Positions 10,068 to 48,679 of a stretch of 64,000 nt of DNA are shown here, piece after piece; position 1 is the first letter of the stretch, and each line of letters opens with the position of its first letter. The notes beneath the pieces were generated by a model, which worked only from the letters and a program-made list of their open reading frames with translations, searched no databases and was not told the DNA's origin. A program made the position numbers and the translations under genes. Origin of the DNA: Chloroflexota bacterium (lineage in GTDB: Bacteria > Chloroflexota > UBA11872); the NCBI GenBank assembly GCA_022821645.1, contig JAJEDE010000015.1, positions 62,001 through 126,000 on the forward strand. The letters run 5' to 3'.

Positions 10068-10643
10068 GTGGCAGCGGCACAGCGCCGCGTGGTGATGTCG
10101 TCGGCGGACATGGGCCGCGCGATGTCCCGCATTGCCCACGAGATCATCGAGCGCAACCGCGGCGCCGCGTCGCTCGTCCTCGTCGGCATTCCCCGGCCGG
10201 GCCCCGTGCTCGCCGAGCGCCTGGCTGGCCTGATCGAGACGATCGAGGGCCAGCAGGTCCCGACCGGCGCCGTGGACCCCACCATGCACCGCGACGATCT
10301 GGACCGCCGGTCCATCGGCCCGCCGGTGCGTCCCAGCGACATTCCGGTGGACGTGACCGATCGCACCGTGGTCCTGGTGGACGACGTGCTCTACACCGGT
10401 CGCACCTTGCGCGCCGCGCTGGACGCGCTGAACGACTTTGGTCGGCCGCGCGCGATTCAGTTCGCCGTCATCGTCGACCGCGGCCACCGCGAGCTGCCGG
10501 TCCGCGCCGACTTCGTCGGCAAAAACCTCCCGACCGCCGACGACGAGCGGGTGACTGTGCGACTGCTGGAGCTCGACGGGGAAGACGCCGTGCACATCGA
10601 GCGCGTGACGCGCGGGGCGCAGGAGGCCACTCCTGCAGCGTAA
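10068..10643 (+). CDS. pyrR: PyrR, pyrimidine operon attenuation protein / uracil phosphoribosyltransferase
   Basis: A 191-residue phosphoribosyltransferase-fold protein. The PRPP-binding loop [18 protein letters not shown] is plainly the PyrR type (DDVLYTGRT), and [13 protein letters not shown] and the DITLYRDDL-like PTMHRDDL match the family. In known cases it binds UMP/UTP and the pyr leader RNA and may convert uracil to UMP. GTG 10068 is preceded by GGGAGG with 5 nt spacing; a GTG at 10062 overlaps the ribosome site and is less likely. First gene of the operon, directly downstream of the hairpin it should bind, so it is probably autoregulated. Confidence 0.95.
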
Positions 10644-37820: not shown

Positions 37821-38156
37821 ATGCGGTGTCCGGAGTGCAGTCATCAGAACACCGAGGGCGCCTGGCTGTGCATCAACTGCGGCGAGAAGCTGCCTCGACC
37901 CGAGACGGCCGAAACCGATCTGAGTTCCGAGACGGCCACCCCGGACGAGTCCGGCCGGTTCGCGCCGAAGATCAGCGAGAATCTGCGCCGATTGCGTGAG
38001 CAAACGGAGCGCGAGCGAGCCGCGTCGGAGCCTCGCGCGCGCAAGACCACACCCAGCACGCCGTCCACCACCCTGCTGGGGTTGCCGCTGACCGTGTGGG
38101 CGGCCGTGGCGATCCTCATCATCGCCTTCGTCATCGTCGTCTCGAACCTGCAGTAA
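37821..38156 (+). CDS. Zinc-ribbon protein with C-terminal membrane anchor
   Basis: A 111-residue protein: zinc ribbon at the N-terminus (CPECSHQNTEGAWLCINCGEKL, two CxxC pairs), a charged linker (about 35-80), and one C-terminal helix (LTVWAAVAILIIAFVIVVS). The ribbon would face the cytoplasm, as in many tail-anchored zinc-ribbon proteins of unknown role. Its TAA stop overlaps the presumed start of the methyltransferase gene. Confidence 0.8.
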   Translation: MRCPECSHQNTEGAWLCINCGEKLPRPETAETDLSSETATPDESGRFAPKISENLRRLREQTERERAASEPRARKTTPSTPSTTLLGLPLTVWAAVAILIIAFVIVVSNLQ

Positions 38157-39295
38157 CGTCCCGCGGCCCCCTTTTCGAGTCGCTTCGCCGGCGCATCGCC
38201 GCCGAGGGCCCGATTTCGTTCGCGGACTTCATGACGTCGGCGCTCTACGACGAGCGCCACGGCTTCTACAGCCGCGCGCCGTCCCGAGCCGGCGACTACT
38301 TCACCAGCGTCACCGTGCACCCGACGCTCTTCGGCACGCTCCTGGCGCGGCATCTCGACGACGTGTGGACGGCGCTTGGTGAGCCTCGACCATTTCGGGT
38401 CGTGGAGCTTGGCTGCGGGGACGGCACGCTTGCCGGGCAGATTGTGTCCGCCGCCCGGGGACGCCCATGGCGCGAGCACCTCGCCTACGTGGGCGTCGAG
38501 CGCTCCGCCCAAGCGCGAGCGCGGGCCCGGACGCAGGTTCCGACGGCTACGTTCACGGCATCGTTGGACGCCATCGATGCCGGTCCGACGGCCGCGTTTC
38601 TCAGCAACGAGCTGTTCGACGCCCTGCCCGTGCGGCTGCTGCAACGCGACGGCGGCGACTGGGTCGAGTTGCGGGTGGGCATGAGCGACGATTCCCTGGC
38701 CCTCGAGCCATTCCGCGCGGATGTCGAAGCCATGGCTTATGCGCGGCGCTATGGCAGTGACGTTCCAGACGGCGGGATCATCGAGATGCGCGAGGGAGTG
38801 GCCGGCGTCTATGCAGACGTCCGTCGCATCGCCCGCCGATGGGTCATGACGAGCATCGACTACGGAGGCCTCGCGACCGAGATGCACGGCCCGCGCTTCA
38901 ATCAGGGAACGCTGCTGGCGTACCGCCAACACCGCGCCTCGGAGGACGTGTTGGCCGATCCCGGTTCCTCCGACCTGACGGCGCACGTAAACTTCTCCGA
39001 ACTCATCGACGCGGGCGCGCGCGCTGGCGCGACGGCGGCGCTCTTGGGCACGCAGGGAGACTTTCTGACGGCACTGGGAATCGGCGAGCATTTGCCGGCG
39101 GTGCAGCGCCGTCCGGACCTTTCGGTCGCGGACTACACGCGTGAGCGCGAAGCCGTTTTTCAGCTTGTGTCCCCCACCGACCTTGGAAGGTTTCGCGTGC
39201 TGGTGCAGGCTCGCGATGCAGTGATCGACCGATTGCGTGGAGTGCCGGCAGCCGCGGCCACGCCACAGCCCGCCACCGGGAAGGACGACGGATGA
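38156..39295 (+). CDS. MidA/NDUFAF7-type SAM-dependent methyltransferase
   Basis: Related to the arginine methyltransferase that helps assemble respiratory complex I in mitochondria; bacterial function is less clear. Motifs: GPISFADFMTSALYDERHGFYS near the start, GDYFTSVTVHPTLFG, the SAM loop VVELGCGDGTLAGQI, and FLSNELFDALPV. Family members begin about where ACG 38156 lies, overlapping the upstream stop as TAACG. No ATG, GTG or TTG is nearby; the nearest canonical upstream codon is GTG 38096, 61 bp inside the previous gene. I give the ACG position (379 residues) as the likelier start, by inference. Confidence 0.85.
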   Translation, partial: TSRGPLFESLRRRIAAEGPISFADFMTSALYDERHGFYSRAPSRAGDYFTSVTVHPTLFGTLLARHLDDVWTALGEPRPFRVVELGCGDGTLAGQIVSAARGRPWREHLAYVGVERSAQARARARTQVPTATFTASLDAIDAGPTAAFLSNELFDALPVRLLQRDGGDWVELRVGMSDDSLALEPFRADVEAMAYARRYGSDVPDGGIIEMREGVAGVYADVRRIARRWVMTSIDYGGLATEMHGPRFNQGTLLAYRQHRASEDVLADPGSSDLTAHVNFSELIDAGARAGATAALLGTQGDFLTALGIGEHLPAVQRRPDLSVADYTREREAVFQLVSPTDLGRFRVLVQARDAVIDRLRGVPAAAATPQPATGKDDG

Positions 39296-40707
39296 CGACA
39301 CGGACCGAAACGGACCCCCTGGGCGATCTGGAGGTTCCAGCCGGCGCGCTCTACGGCGTGCAGACGCAGCGCGCGGTTGAGAACTTCGACATCAGCGGCA
39401 TCGGACCGCACCCGGCGTTCATTTGGGCGACGGTGGTGGTGAAAAAGGCTGCGGCCATTGCCCACCGGCGCACCGGCCGGCTCGACGCCACGCTGGCGGA
39501 CGCCATCGTGCAGGCCGCGGACGAGGTGCTGACGGACGGGCTGCACCAGGACCAGTTCGTCGTGGATGTCTTCCAGGCCGGGGCCGGGACCTCGCACAAC
39601 ATGAACGCGAACGAGCTGCTCGCCAACCGCGCCAACGAGCTATTGGGCGGCGAGCGCGGCGCCTACGCGCCGGTGCATCCCAACGACCACGTGAACATGG
39701 CCCAGTCGACCAACGACATCATCCCCACGGCCATTGCCCTGGCGGCGCTGAAGCTATTGCAGGACCTGTATGTGTCGCTGGACGGCCTGGCCGACGCGTT
39801 CGACGAGAAGGCGCGCGACTGGGACGGAATCGTGAAGTCGGGCCGAACCCACTTGCAGGACGCGACGCCGGTGCGCCTGGGCCAGGAGTTCGGGGCCTAC
39901 GCGGAGGCCATCCGCCGCGACGCGGCGTTCATTCGCGACGCCGAGACACAGGTCCAGGAGCTCAGTCTGGGCGGCACCGCCGTCGGCAGCGGCCTGAACG
40001 CGGAGCCCGAGTACCAGGTCGAGGTCATCGACGTCATCGGCGAGGTCACGGGACTCGACGTGCGACGCGCGGAAAACCTCTTCTACTCGATGCAGAGCAT
40101 GTCGCGGTTCGCCATGTTGTCCGGAGCGCTGCGCGCGCTGGCCATCGACCTGAGCCGCATCGCCAACGACTTCCGGCTGCTGGCGTCCGGCCCCCGCACG
40201 GGCATCTCCGAACTGCGGCTGCCGGCGCTGCAGCCGGGGTCGTCGATCATGCCCGGCAAGGTCAACCCGGTCATGGCCGAATGCATGAACATGGTCTGCT
40301 TCCACGTGTTCGGCAACGACGCGGCCGTCCAATGGGCCGCCGAAGCCGGGCAACTGGAGCTGAACGTGATGATGCCCTGCATCGCCTACAACCTGTGCCA
40401 GTCCCTCGAGGTCTTGACTAACGCCACGCGGGCGTTCGACACCCGCGCCGTCCGCGGGTTGGAGGTGGACGAGCGGATGCTGCGCTACTGGCTGGAGCGG
40501 AACACCATGCTGGCGACCGCGCTCGCACCGCGCATCGGCTATGCGGCCGCCGCCGAAATCGCCAAGGAGGCCGTCGCCACCGGCGAAGGCGTGCCGGAGG
40601 TCGCGGCGCGGCTCACCGACATCCCTGCCGACGAGCTGGCGGAGGCGCTCGATCCAACGCCCATGACGGAGGCCGGCGTGCGCGCGGGCGGCGGCGGAGG
40701 CGGCTAG
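39292..40707 (+). CDS. Class II fumarase/aspartase family lyase
   Basis: A 471-residue member of the superfamily that includes fumarase C and aspartase. It has VFQAGAGTSHNMNANE, PNDHVNMAQSTND, SGRTHLQDATPVRLGQEF and the signature loop GSSIMPGKVNPVMAE. The AGAGTSHNMN and LQDA elements look aspartase-like, while GGTAVGSGLN looks fumarase-like, so I do not choose between aspartate ammonia-lyase and fumarate hydratase. It overlaps the methyltransferase stop by 4 bp. The protein ends in an unusual run of six glycines. Confidence 0.9.
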   Translation: MTTRTETDPLGDLEVPAGALYGVQTQRAVENFDISGIGPHPAFIWATVVVKKAAAIAHRRTGRLDATLADAIVQAADEVLTDGLHQDQFVVDVFQAGAGTSHNMNANELLANRANELLGGERGAYAPVHPNDHVNMAQSTNDIIPTAIALAALKLLQDLYVSLDGLADAFDEKARDWDGIVKSGRTHLQDATPVRLGQEFGAYAEAIRRDAAFIRDAETQVQELSLGGTAVGSGLNAEPEYQVEVIDVIGEVTGLDVRRAENLFYSMQSMSRFAMLSGALRALAIDLSRIANDFRLLASGPRTGISELRLPALQPGSSIMPGKVNPVMAECMNMVCFHVFGNDAAVQWAAEAGQLELNVMMPCIAYNLCQSLEVLTNATRAFDTRAVRGLEVDERMLRYWLERNTMLATALAPRIGYAAAAEIAKEAVATGEGVPEVAARLTDIPADELAEALDPTPMTEAGVRAGGGGGG

Positions 40708-40734
40708 CGTCTCGTTCGATTTGAGCCGGTGCCG

Positions 40735-40757
40735 TTCGTGGTGAGCCTGTCGAACCA
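40735..40757. repeat. Dispersed TGAGC-TGTCGAA palindromic element, second copy
   Basis: TTCGTGGTGAGCCTGTCGAACCA shares the frame TTCGT-nn-TGAGC-n-TGTCGAA with the loop element of the hairpin at 19301-19358. The variable bases still pair with each other (GGT with ACC here, CCT with AGG there). That paired change shows the fold is kept. It lies 30 bp past the lyase gene. Confidence 0.6.
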
Positions 40758-40852
40758 CAAGCGGCGCCGGCGCCGCGCAGACCGGGATTGGCCCATGCCC
40801 AGGTGATCCGCGAAGAACATTCCAAAATTGTGGCGGCGAACGCCGCATCCCG

Positions 40853-40861
40853 TGGTACTGT
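40853..40861 (+). promoter_or_regulatory. Extended -10 promoter of the RRM protein gene
   Basis: TGGTACTGT has the TGn extension followed by TACTGT (four of six). The -35 region is poor (TTGTGG is 22 nt away). Start would be near 40868, leaving an untranslated leader of about 120 nt. The leader holds the hairpin GGTTCC-GCGT-GGAACC (40875-40890). Confidence 0.4.
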
Positions 40862-40962
40862 TTGCGCAGTGTCGGGTTCCGCGTGGAACCTGCAACGTTG
40901 GATTCTTGGCTGCGACCGCGGAGTGTGCGGCGGGCAAGGTTGGCGGATCAGGCGAGCGTCGC

Positions 40963-40992
40963 ATGAGTTCCGCGGAAGGTTTAGCTGGATGA
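40963..40992 (+). other. Possible nine-codon leader peptide overlapping the RRM gene start
   Basis: ATG at 40963 opens the frame MSSAEGLAG and its TGA overlaps the RRM start as ATGA. The ribosome site of the RRM gene (GGAAGG, 40975-40980) lies within it. The leader ATG itself has only a weak ribosome site, so translation is uncertain. Confidence 0.3.
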
Positions 40993-41354
40993 ATATCTTT
41001 GTTGGCAATCTGCCGTTCGTGACGACCGATGACGAGCTTCACGAGCTCTTCGCACGATACGGCGAGATCACTCGAGCCACCGTGATCAAGGACCGCGTGA
41101 CCGGAAAGTCGCGCGGTTTTGGCTTTGTCGAGATGATGGACGACGAGATGGCTCGTCAGGCCATCGAGGCCCTCAACGGCTCCGACCTCATGGGTCGCGC
41201 GCTGACCGTGAACGAGGCGCGCCCGCGCGAGTCTCGCCCGCGTAGCGGTGGCTACGGTGGTGGCGGCGGCGGTGGCGGCTACGGCGGCGGCGGCGGTGGC
41301 TACGGCGGCCGTGGCGGTGGCGGTGGCGGCTACGGCGGCGGCGACCGCTACTAG
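40989..41354 (+). CDS. Glycine-rich RNA-binding protein (single RRM domain)
   Basis: A 121-residue protein. The RRM fills residues 1-80 with RNP2 IFVGNLPF (3-10) and RNP1 KSRGFGFV (40-47), both intact with their aromatic residues. Residues 87-121 are a low-complexity tail of glycine and tyrosine with one RGG-like spot. Similar proteins in cyanobacteria and other bacteria are cold-induced RNA chaperones. The long leader before ATG 40989 fits cold-shock type control. GGAAGG 8 nt upstream supports the start. Monocistronic, with a hairpin downstream. Confidence 0.93.
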   Translation: MNIFVGNLPFVTTDDELHELFARYGEITRATVIKDRVTGKSRGFGFVEMMDDEMARQAIEALNGSDLMGRALTVNEARPRESRPRSGGYGGGGGGGGYGGGGGGYGGRGGGGGGYGGGDRY

Positions 41355-41398
41355 GCGGCTAGCTCCGTCGGGCCACGAGCCCGACTGACATCTGATTC

Positions 41399-41425
41399 GG
41401 AAGCGCCGGCACGTCCGGCGCTTCC
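41399..41425. terminator. Hairpin between convergent genes
   Basis: GGAAGCGCCGG (41399-41409) and CCGGCGCTTCC (41415-41425) are exact complements around a 5 nt loop. It lies between the RRM gene and the converging FAD-oxidoreductase gene, whose stop is 5 bp away, so it can serve both strands. No T-tract. Confidence 0.65.
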
Positions 41426-41430
41426 GGCCG

Positions 41431-42933
41431 TTAAGCGACCCCCAGCTCCGCCAGGCGGGGCGACTCGCCCAGGTAGTACCCGACGTCAACCAGCGCGCGC
41501 TGCAGCCGACGGATGTCGACGTGACGCGGCGGCACGCCCTCGGCCACGGCCCGAGCCGCGGCCATGCCCGCCACGCCGCCAGTCACCTTGGCGATCCAGC
41601 GCCAGCGCAGGCTGGCCGTACGGTCCCGGCCAATGGAGCGTCCCGCCGCCAGCATGCCCTCCACGCCTTGGGGCAGGAACTGGCCCAGCGGCATGTCGAA
41701 GTGGTGGCCCTCTTCGCGCTCGCGCAGGTTGACCAACTGGCGGGTGCGCCCATCCTTGCGCACCGAGTCGTCGTAGCGGTAGAGCGTGGTCAGCACGTGC
41801 ACTACGTCGTCAAATCGCCGCTCCGCCACGATGTCGTCGCGGCTGAGGGTGTAGTCGGGGACGATGGTGCGGCTCCAGCGCGTGCCCATGTAGGGCGCGA
41901 TCTGGCTGACGCGGGCGTTCTCGAACCCTGGCACGTGCCGCTTGTAGAACTCGATGGTGTCGTACGCGTGCAGCCGGGCCGAGGACTCGATGGTTGACCG
42001 CTCGATCGCGTTCAGCGCCGACAGGGTGTGATCCGGCCAGCGCGTTTCGATGGTTGTCACGTCCTGATCGTGGGTAGCGAACGGGATCTTGTAGGCATGC
42101 GCGCCGCCCGGGATTGAGGCCACGTACTTGTACTCGCCGGACTCCCAGTCGGCCATCATGAACGGCAGCAGCTCGCGCGGATAGTTGGCCCAGACGCGCT
42201 CGAGGGCGACGAACAGCACCTCGTCCACCCAGCGCTGTTCCTCGTCGCTCAGCGGCTTGTCGCGCTCGGCCGCGCGGAACTCCTCGTAGGTCTCCCAGTC
42301 CACGTCCTCCACTCGGAAGAACAGCCCGAAGCCGGCTTCGGCGCTGGCAAAGGCATCCTCGGTCTCGGCACCGGCCGCGGCGGCCACGTCGGCTTCGCCG
42401 GTGGTGTCGATGACGACCTTGGCCGTGATCGCCCGCCGGCCTTCACCGGTCTCGAAAATCACGCCCCGAACGTGGCCGTCCTCAACGATCGCTCCGGCCA
42501 CGGTGGTGGACAACAGCAGGGAGACGTCCAGGTCGCGCAGACGCTGCAGGGCCAGCCGCTGGAACTCGTTGCGGTCGATGACGGGAATGTGCGCCATGCC
42601 GTCCCAGCGCCAGGGCACGTTGTCGCCGCCGCTGATGAAGTCGAAGGTCTTGATGCCGCCGCGCGCGTCCAGACGGTCCAGGAAGTCGCCCACCTGGCCG
42701 CCCAATCCGCGGTCGTGCTGCTGCGGCGCTTGCCAGAGGTCGTGGCGCGAGCCAAGCCCCGGCCCGTAGTTGCCGCCCACGGCCGAGTACTCGTCCACCA
42801 GCGTGGTACGAGCCCCCGCCGCCGCGGCCTCCAGCGCCGCGTACAGCCCCGAAATGCCCGCCCCCGCCACCAGCACCTCGGTGTCATGCAACACCGGCAC
42901 GTCACGCGCCGGTTCATGGATCACATTCGCCAC
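41431..42933 (-). CDS. FAD-dependent oxidoreductase (FAD_oxidored family)
   Basis: A 500-residue flavoprotein. The Rossmann motif EVLVAGAGISGLYAALEAA opens the FAD domain, AKVVIDTTGEADVAAAAGAE is the second FAD-contact region, and GMLAAGRSIGRDRTASLRWR is the C-terminal contact typical of the FAD_oxidored group. Substrate is unknown; such enzymes occur in secondary and carbohydrate catabolism in this kind of genome. GTG 42933 has GAGAGG 6 nt upstream. Single gene, convergent with the RRM gene and divergent from an ABC exporter. Confidence 0.87.
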   Translation of the reverse strand: MANVIHEPARDVPVLHDTEVLVAGAGISGLYAALEAAAAGARTTLVDEYSAVGGNYGPGLGSRHDLWQAPQQHDRGLGGQVGDFLDRLDARGGIKTFDFISGGDNVPWRWDGMAHIPVIDRNEFQRLALQRLRDLDVSLLLSTTVAGAIVEDGHVRGVIFETGEGRRAITAKVVIDTTGEADVAAAAGAETEDAFASAEAGFGLFFRVEDVDWETYEEFRAAERDKPLSDEEQRWVDEVLFVALERVWANYPRELLPFMMADWESGEYKYVASIPGGAHAYKIPFATHDQDVTTIETRWPDHTLSALNAIERSTIESSARLHAYDTIEFYKRHVPGFENARVSQIAPYMGTRWSRTIVPDYTLSRDDIVAERRFDDVVHVLTTLYRYDDSVRKDGRTRQLVNLREREEGHHFDMPLGQFLPQGVEGMLAAGRSIGRDRTASLRWRWIAKVTGGVAGMAAARAVAEGVPPRHVDIRRLQRALVDVGYYLGESPRLAELGVA

Positions 42934-47147: not shown

Positions 47148-48491
47148 CTACTGGGAAGCGGCCACCGCTCGTCGACGCCGGCGCCGGTTGCGGCGACGCG
47201 GCCTGTCCGACTCACCGTTGGCCGACGGGGTCCGATCGGCGTCTGCCGGCGGCCGGCTGGCGCGGCGATTGGCGCTCAGGCTTTCGCCGGGCAGCACCTT
47301 GAGTCCACCCGCGCCGACCGTCGCGGCGGCGGCCAGGTCGCGCGCTGTCCGGCCGTTGGTTGAGCCGTTGTCGCCTTGAATGTCTCGCCAGGTTCGCCTG
47401 ACCAGCTTGCCGCCCAGGATGCGTTCGATGGCATTCAGGGCGCCCAGGTCCGCGCCGCTGACCAGCGTGATCGAGCGTCCCAGGCCGCCCATGCGTCCCG
47501 TGCGGCCGGTGCGATGGGTGAAGAGGTTCGGGTCTTCCGGCACGTCGTAATTGATCACCTGTCCCAGGCCGGCAATGTCCAGCCCGCGCGCAGCCACGTT
47601 GGTGGCCACCAGCACGTCGATGCGTGAACTGCGCAGACGCTCGATCACGCGGCTGCGCGCCTGCTGCGCCATGGCGCCCTGGATCGAGTCGACGCGTATG
47701 CCCGTACTCTTCAGCCGCGCGCCGAGGCGCGACACCTGGTGCCGGGTCCGTCCAAAGACGATCGTGGGCGTACCTCGTGTCTCGTCCAGGATGTGCTGCA
47801 CGGCCGCCAGGCGCTCGACCTCCGGCACGATCCAGACCTCATGGTCGATGTCGGGCCGGTCGTCCGGCTCGGTGTCCAGCTCGATCCACCTGGGATCGCT
47901 GAGCTGACGCTCGGTGATGCGCCGCACCCAGTCAGGCACCGTGGCCGAGAACAGCGAGGTCTGCCGGTCCGCCGGCGTGTGGCGCAGGATGGCTTCCACC
48001 TGCGGCGCCATGCCGATGTCGAACATCAGGTCGGCTTCGTCCAGAACCACGACGCGGATGGACCTGGTGCTAAGGCTGCCGCTCTCGATCAGGTCCAGCG
48101 CCCGGCCGGGCGTGGCCACCACGATCTGCGCGCCGGCGTCCAGGGCCTTGCGCTGCGGGCCATAGCTGACGCCGCCCAGGATTCGGACGACGCGCATGCC
48201 CAGGCGGGCGGCCAGCGGCTCGGTAACCGAGGCAATCTGCTCCACCAGTTCGCGCGTGGGCCCCAGCACCAGGGCCTGCTGCTCTCGGCTGTCGGCGTCG
48301 ATGCGTTCCAGCAACGGCAGCACGTAAGCCAGCGTCTTGCCGGATCCGGTGCGGGCCTGGCCCACGACGTCACGTCCGTCCATCAGGAGAGGGATGCAGG
48401 CGGCCTGGATTGGTGTGGGATCGGTAATGGACTGGTCTTCGAGGTCGTCGGCGAGATCTTGGCGAACTCCGAGGTCAATGAAACTAGCGAT
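47148..48491 (-). CDS. DEAD-box RNA helicase
   Basis: The Q motif (TPIQAACIPLL), motif I ARTGSGKT, Ia PTRELV, Ib TPGRALD, II DEAD, III SAT, V ARGLDIAG and VI HRTGRTGR are all intact. The C-terminal tail is rich in arginine. The first ATG (48383) lies after the Q motif, so the gene must begin earlier. In frame upstream there is no ATG, GTG or TTG, but ATC at 48491 has GGGAG 8 nt before it and sits just before the conserved SFIDLGV. I give that start (447 residues) as inference. Probably a cold or ribosome-assembly helicase. Confidence 0.87.
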   Translation of the reverse strand: MASFIDLGVRQDLADDLEDQSITDPTPIQAACIPLLMDGRDVVGQARTGSGKTLAYVLPLLERIDADSREQQALVLGPTRELVEQIASVTEPLAARLGMRVVRILGGVSYGPQRKALDAGAQIVVATPGRALDLIESGSLSTRSIRVVVLDEADLMFDIGMAPQVEAILRHTPADRQTSLFSATVPDWVRRITERQLSDPRWIELDTEPDDRPDIDHEVWIVPEVERLAAVQHILDETRGTPTIVFGRTRHQVSRLGARLKSTGIRVDSIQGAMAQQARSRVIERLRSSRIDVLVATNVAARGLDIAGLGQVINYDVPEDPNLFTHRTGRTGRMGGLGRSITLVSGADLGALNAIERILGGKLVRRTWRDIQGDNGSTNGRTARDLAAAATVGAGGLKVLPGESLSANRRASRPPADADRTPSANGESDRPRRRNRRRRRRAVAASQ

Positions 48492-48679
48492 GGGAAGTGC
48501 TCCCTGGATCAGGCACGCAAGCTCAACATGGCGATAGGCGCGCAGTTTCCGATGTTCGCGCGCACTGCTTTTTCTGCTGCGCGCGGTGGCTGGTTATGTT
48601 TCAACCATACCCTAAAGCCGTCGCGCTTGGTCCGGCCCCTGTGAAGTGGCTCACGCGGCGGCCGACGGATGGCTAACCG

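Follow-up and report, generated by a model that had tools for sequence, protein, structure and literature searches.

Comparative evidence for an ATC translation start, conserved across a Chloroflexota family, in a DEAD-box RNA helicase gene

Our comparison of orthologues strongly supports translation of a DEAD-box RNA helicase gene from an ATC codon at position 48491 of the window, the whole stretch of 64,000 nucleotides that was analysed (positions 62001-126000 of a 250-kb contig). A sequence-only reading of this DNA had proposed that start, and it agrees with ATC or ATT in 19 out of 19 orthologues of the family, with in-frame stops six codons upstream in two of them and with a coding signal that sets in at the ATC; ATC/ATT is thereby shown to be the only putative start consistent with all lineages. 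Taken jointly, initiation at this codon from a Shine-Dalgarno (SD) sequence in the leader and a low output limited by initiation factor IF3 make up the explanation that we consider likely. There are few conserved near-cognate starts, and they mostly escape notice because gene finders look for ATG, GTG or TTG; the helicase is thus likely truncated in automatic annotation, with loss of its Q motif. A DEAD-box helicase held at ATC/ATT across a family would add a class of target to those known, and the set of open-access papers that we searched yielded no bacterial DEAD-box helicase with an AUC or AUU start.

The predicted protein has the DEAD (3.2e-49) and Helicase_C (3.8e-27) Pfam domains together with the Q motif that define DEAD-box helicases. 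The best of the NCBIfam models listed was CshA, with 350 of the 646 bits of the equivalog cut-off, and because this score lies below the curated cut-off the helicase is left without a named subfamily. Residue 1, encoded by the ATC, matches residue 1 of chain 5ivl (CshA) without offset (3-365 to 3-365) and falls within one position in Hera 4kbf (4 to 3) and in the RhlE model (3 to 2). By these alignments the ATC position appears to be where CshA, Hera (the 'heat resistant RNA dependent ATPase') and RhlE begin; the helicase shares with them the protein family and the position of residue 1, and differs in its non-canonical start and its sub-cut-off NCBIfam score. The first ATG, at 48383 on the minus strand, lies 36 codons inside the frame and past F...TPIQ, in agreement with the earlier argument that the Q motif is encoded ahead of it and that it is not the start. 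The upstream frame was likewise as described: it extends without interruption to a TAA at -105, none of its codons ahead of the Q motif is ATG, GTG or TTG, and the only ATC or near-cognate codons in it are one ATC (-18) and two CTGs (-21 and -54). The GGGAG noted 8 nt ahead of the ATC is also in place (Table 1).

Table 1. Features of the helicase locus (positions in the window).
Feature	Position	Strand	Evidence
DEAD-box RNA helicase CDS, CshA/RhlE-like, 447 aa	47148..48491	minus	Pfam DEAD + Helicase_C; orthologues in 19/19 family genomes
Putative start codon ATC, read as fMet	48489..48491	minus	ATC/ATT in 19/19 orthologues; coding signal begins there
SD-like GGGAG, 8 nt ahead of ATC	48500..48504	minus	anti-SD duplex -7.4 kcal/mol
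Q motif region F...TPIQ, 5' of first ATG	48405..48482	minus	read from sequence
Internal ATG, not the start	48381..48383	minus	Leu at equivalent place in e.g. G005, G001, G004
5' leader, ~110 nt, conserved	48492..48603	minus	non-coding by substitution pattern
Possible 6-codon uORF, MLSLRA-stop, just 5' of SD	48509..48529	minus	10/10 close g1 genomes scanned
TATGGT, possible -10 element	48604..48609	minus	consensus match only
In-frame TAA 5' of ATC (at -105)	48594..48596	minus	sequence

The family (f1), of uncultured Chloroflexota, was sampled with 19 genomes in two genera, g1 (n = 13, including the window's own) and g2 (n = 6); the start region was read in 18 of them and also in the remaining one, G011, where a second contig supplied it. 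All 19 carry the helicase gene, with ATC as the start codon in 17 and ATT in two (G006 and G010), and a reversion to ATG, GTG or TTG occurs in none, a constancy across species that exceeds chance. In G003 and G002 the sixth codon upstream of the ATC is an in-frame TGA, and the codons between them (AAG GGA TGG ACC ACC and AGG GAA CTC GAC GTT, respectively) include no ATG, GTG, TTG or CTG, which excludes an upstream start as well as a consensus error; G002 is a closed 3.0-Mb chromosome in one contig. A canonical start without loss of conserved protein is therefore impossible in these two genomes, where the evidence is decisive, and all 19 are consistent with this. Ahead of the Q motif, the four lineages align only at the ATC/ATT and at an AGY TTY two codons further on. 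We counted against the ATC the far-upstream in-frame ATG, GTG or TTG codons (at -93 or beyond) found in 7 of the 18 sequences, namely GTG at -93 in G012 and TTG at -99 and others in all six g2 genomes; the TTG at -99 shares bases with the TATGGT at -104; no such codon is common to different lineages. As a control, a canonical codon was found 5' of the Q-motif Phe in 83 out of 83 DEAD-box loci that do not belong to the orthologue group (the nearest being ATG in 46, TTG in 25 and GTG in 12), a set of relatives from several phyla and g2-type paralogues in which an upstream canonical codon is no proof of its use.

The SD sequence stands at a usable spacing from the ATC. All 10 close g1 genomes that were scored share its predicted anti-SD duplex (Table 1), and -7 or better is reached by 5.8% of 600 ATY triplets sampled from the window; the SD is also strong in G003 and modest in g2 (-4.5 kcal/mol) and G002 (-5.3). 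A hexamer like TATGGT, a possible -10 element by consensus match only, occurs in each of the four f1 lineages (-104 to -118). The leader between it and the ATC hardly varies within either genus, and in g1 the first ten codons also have few changes at third positions. A structured cis-regulatory leader RNA was considered and dropped: the leader matched no Rfam family, its folding energy is ordinary (z -0.13) and none of 40 pairs had both sides changed, in sequences too alike to give this covariation count power. The conservation of the leader might also serve something unrelated to the start. In the ten close g1 genomes scanned, the possible uORF ends 17 nt 5' of the ATC; it is absent from G002, G003 and g2 and was therefore not retained as a general element of the mechanism.

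The IF3 and initiator tRNA genes, to which the sequence-only reading had drawn attention, are both present and look normal, as does the anti-SD. The IF3 N-terminal domain (IF3_N, PF05198) was found in 27 out of 27 genomes searched, an initiator tRNA with the GGG/CCC anticodon stem is present in the window's own genome, its exact pattern being matched in 14 of 21 genomes, and the 16S end carries CCTCCTT. Therefore, relaxed initiation through loss of IF3 is ruled out as the cause. The infC gene itself appears near-cognate: a CTG occupies one position in all 17 f1 genomes read, with a TTG or ATG 6 nt before it, directly after GGAG, in 15 of them and neither in G015 and G003, and ATA precedes the IF3 sequence in G020, G021, G022, G023, G025 and G027; G019, which was not found by the pattern used for the other genomes, reads ATG. 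The infC start is probably CTG in f1 and ATA in related families (L120, L117, L132 and other infC loci), and is likely misplaced by gene callers. As a separate observation, a second infC in G004 (L115, G004:C12) has ATA ahead of the IF3 sequence and resembles the G025 and G027 copies, which belong to another family; this suggests contamination of the G004 assembly.

In the explanation that we favour, the helicase would be initiated at the ATC, decoded as fMet, with the SD placed 8 nt ahead within the leader of about 110 nt. The third base of AUC or AUU would mispair with the initiator anticodon, IF3 would on that account reject most of the initiation complexes and helicase output would be low and IF3-dependent, rising when there is little IF3 for the number of 30S subunits. 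According to PMC10158994, codons that IF3 tolerates must form Watson-Crick pairs at their first two bases, as AUC and AUU do. Regulation of the helicase by IF3 is our inference. The infC gene (ATT in E. coli, ATC in Streptomyces, AUA in S. aureus) likewise has a clade-conserved near-cognate start after a good SD and is a target of IF3 discrimination, but is autoregulated by its own product, whereas here the gene is an RNA helicase. As described in PMC5472188, IF3 represses the near-cognate starts of sigR and infC, and the start of sigR, GTC in 32 of 34 Streptomyces and GTT in the other 2, resembles ATC/ATT in being a conserved near-cognate codon with a rare third-base variant and canonical codons in other taxa; in that source IF3 repression of sigR, which encodes a sigma factor, is shown by experiment, whereas the helicase start is known from sequence comparison. 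The AUA of ccpN and the AUU of cvfC1 in S. aureus are also conserved near-cognate starts, with an output of about 10% of AUG in poor medium (PMC13009471); there, they have extended SD motifs, whereas the SD of the helicase is modest, especially in g2. The helicase thus probably represents a conserved near-cognate start of this known kind, sensitive to IF3, with an RNA helicase as a new target, and because of its ATC it is probably made at a low rate that depends on IF3.

A rival possibility, less likely but to be reckoned with, is that the ATC is merely tolerated, i.e. that an accidental start arose by drift at the root of the family and has remained, a low output being sufficient, with no IF3-dependent regulation. 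The order-level outgroups G022 and G020 apparently use TTG as the helicase start, and the exchange of ATC for ATT in G006 and G010 would fit a weak constraint on the third base. However, none of the 19 genomes has reverted to ATG, GTG or TTG, though ATG is one base change away, and the leader and first codons are unusually invariant in g1. If output is indeed limited by IF3, since infC is near-cognate too, IF3 and the helicase would respond together, and with both genes in the same genomes a setting of helicase supply by start-codon fidelity becomes testable. At the 1e-60 threshold, each of the 12 g1 genomes other than that of the window (G000) has one DEAD-box helicase; G000 has a second one, of the g2 type, whose contig also carries the g2-like stretch described below, and a second copy is found in 5 of the 6 g2 genomes. 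It could be imagined, as a speculation to which we give rather little weight, that the genus has wired its only close DEAD-box helicase to start-codon fidelity: immature 30S subunits, or 30S in excess of IF3, would raise near-cognate initiation and thereby the synthesis of IF3 and of a helicase helping ribosome or mRNA folding, in a homeostatic loop matching helicase supply to the state of the ribosome.

The substitution pattern appears protein-like 3' of the ATC and not 5' of it in close relatives. In the ten g1 sequences compared, the 35 upstream codons include 1 with synonymous changes only and 9 with amino-acid changes, against 15 and 6 in the first 36 codons from the ATC and 53 and 14 in the next 100 (upstream versus first 36, Fisher p 0.002); in the six g2 sequences the figures are 3 and 5, 8 and 0, and 27 and 12 (p 0.026; p 0.09 against all 136 codons). 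These counts, made without G002, G003 and G011, pool related sequences and are descriptive. Translation of a longer protein from the CTG at -21 or the ATC at -18 could appeal to the retention of both codons in close g1 genomes, but it is very improbable given the stops in G002 and G003, the free amino-acid change of the codons 5' of the ATC and the lack of a counterpart to either codon in g2. Initiation at the first downstream canonical codon, which would yield a helicase without a complete Q motif, has the ATG at 48383 to recommend it in the window and is, if anything, even harder to credit: that codon varies in place from +60 to +222 across 18 sequences, and the codons skipped evolve as protein and carry F...TPIQ. 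Finally, the consensus error or frameshift that the earlier reading had allowed for, like a pseudogene, could draw on the metagenomic origin of a contig that is chimeric elsewhere, but has practically no chance of being right, as the identical error would be needed in separate assemblies, a closed chromosome among them, the same codon is found in 19 genomes, the frame is unbroken to its stop so that no frameshift is needed, and the uORF that a frameshift model requires is missing in G002, G003 and g2.

The contig comes from an assembly of 3.55 Mb in 28 contigs (completeness 95, contamination 7), and the window appears to join two genera: positions 1-41323 align at about 87-93% to the g2 genome G013 and 40989-63993 at about 84-87% to the g1 genomes G004 and G007, with the switch near 41250-41300 in 50-base bins (about 41.25 kb). 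The junction, at 41245-41300, was seen to fall inside a shared gene (ORF 40707-41582, minus strand), g2-like to its left and g1-like to its right. A second pyrB, of g1 type, lies on another contig of the window's genome. This fits a two-genus mixture by assembly chimera or contamination, natural recombination being still conceivable. The helicase is well inside the g1 side, and pyrB and the MidA-like gene are on the g2-like segment; therefore, the remark that three near-cognate starts occur in one window fails as a property of one genome, and of the three it is the ATC and the CTG of pyrB that stand. The latter (10633-10635), preceded in the window by CAGGAGG, is kept in four out of four g2 sequences, the window's and those of three genomes; each has AGGAGG or GGGAGG ahead of the CTG and a stop upstream, and 13 g1 and 7 outgroup sequences have ATG at or beside its place (G021 and G019 matches left out). 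The ACG proposed for the MidA-like gene was dropped, being not conserved (GCG in the three other g2 sequences). A GTA before it, kept in all four g2 sequences, overlaps the upstream stop as GTAA or GTAG (38153-38158) at the place where g1 often has GTG or ATG; this GTA is the likelier start, although one at the upstream GTG, residue 33, is conceivable. Among 53 syntenic ORF pairs of G013 and G006, 10 were flagged, but none looked sound when inspected. Because this test accepts a canonical codon as far as 7 residues downstream, it would miss a case like pyrB; it yields no rate. In the window, 40 ORFs, some of them antisense readings, had a match in a more distant relative and 9 were flagged on the window side; the MidA-like gene went unflagged because of its upstream GTG and, after reading of 11 selected ORFs, a near-cognate start stood for pyrB and the helicase only.
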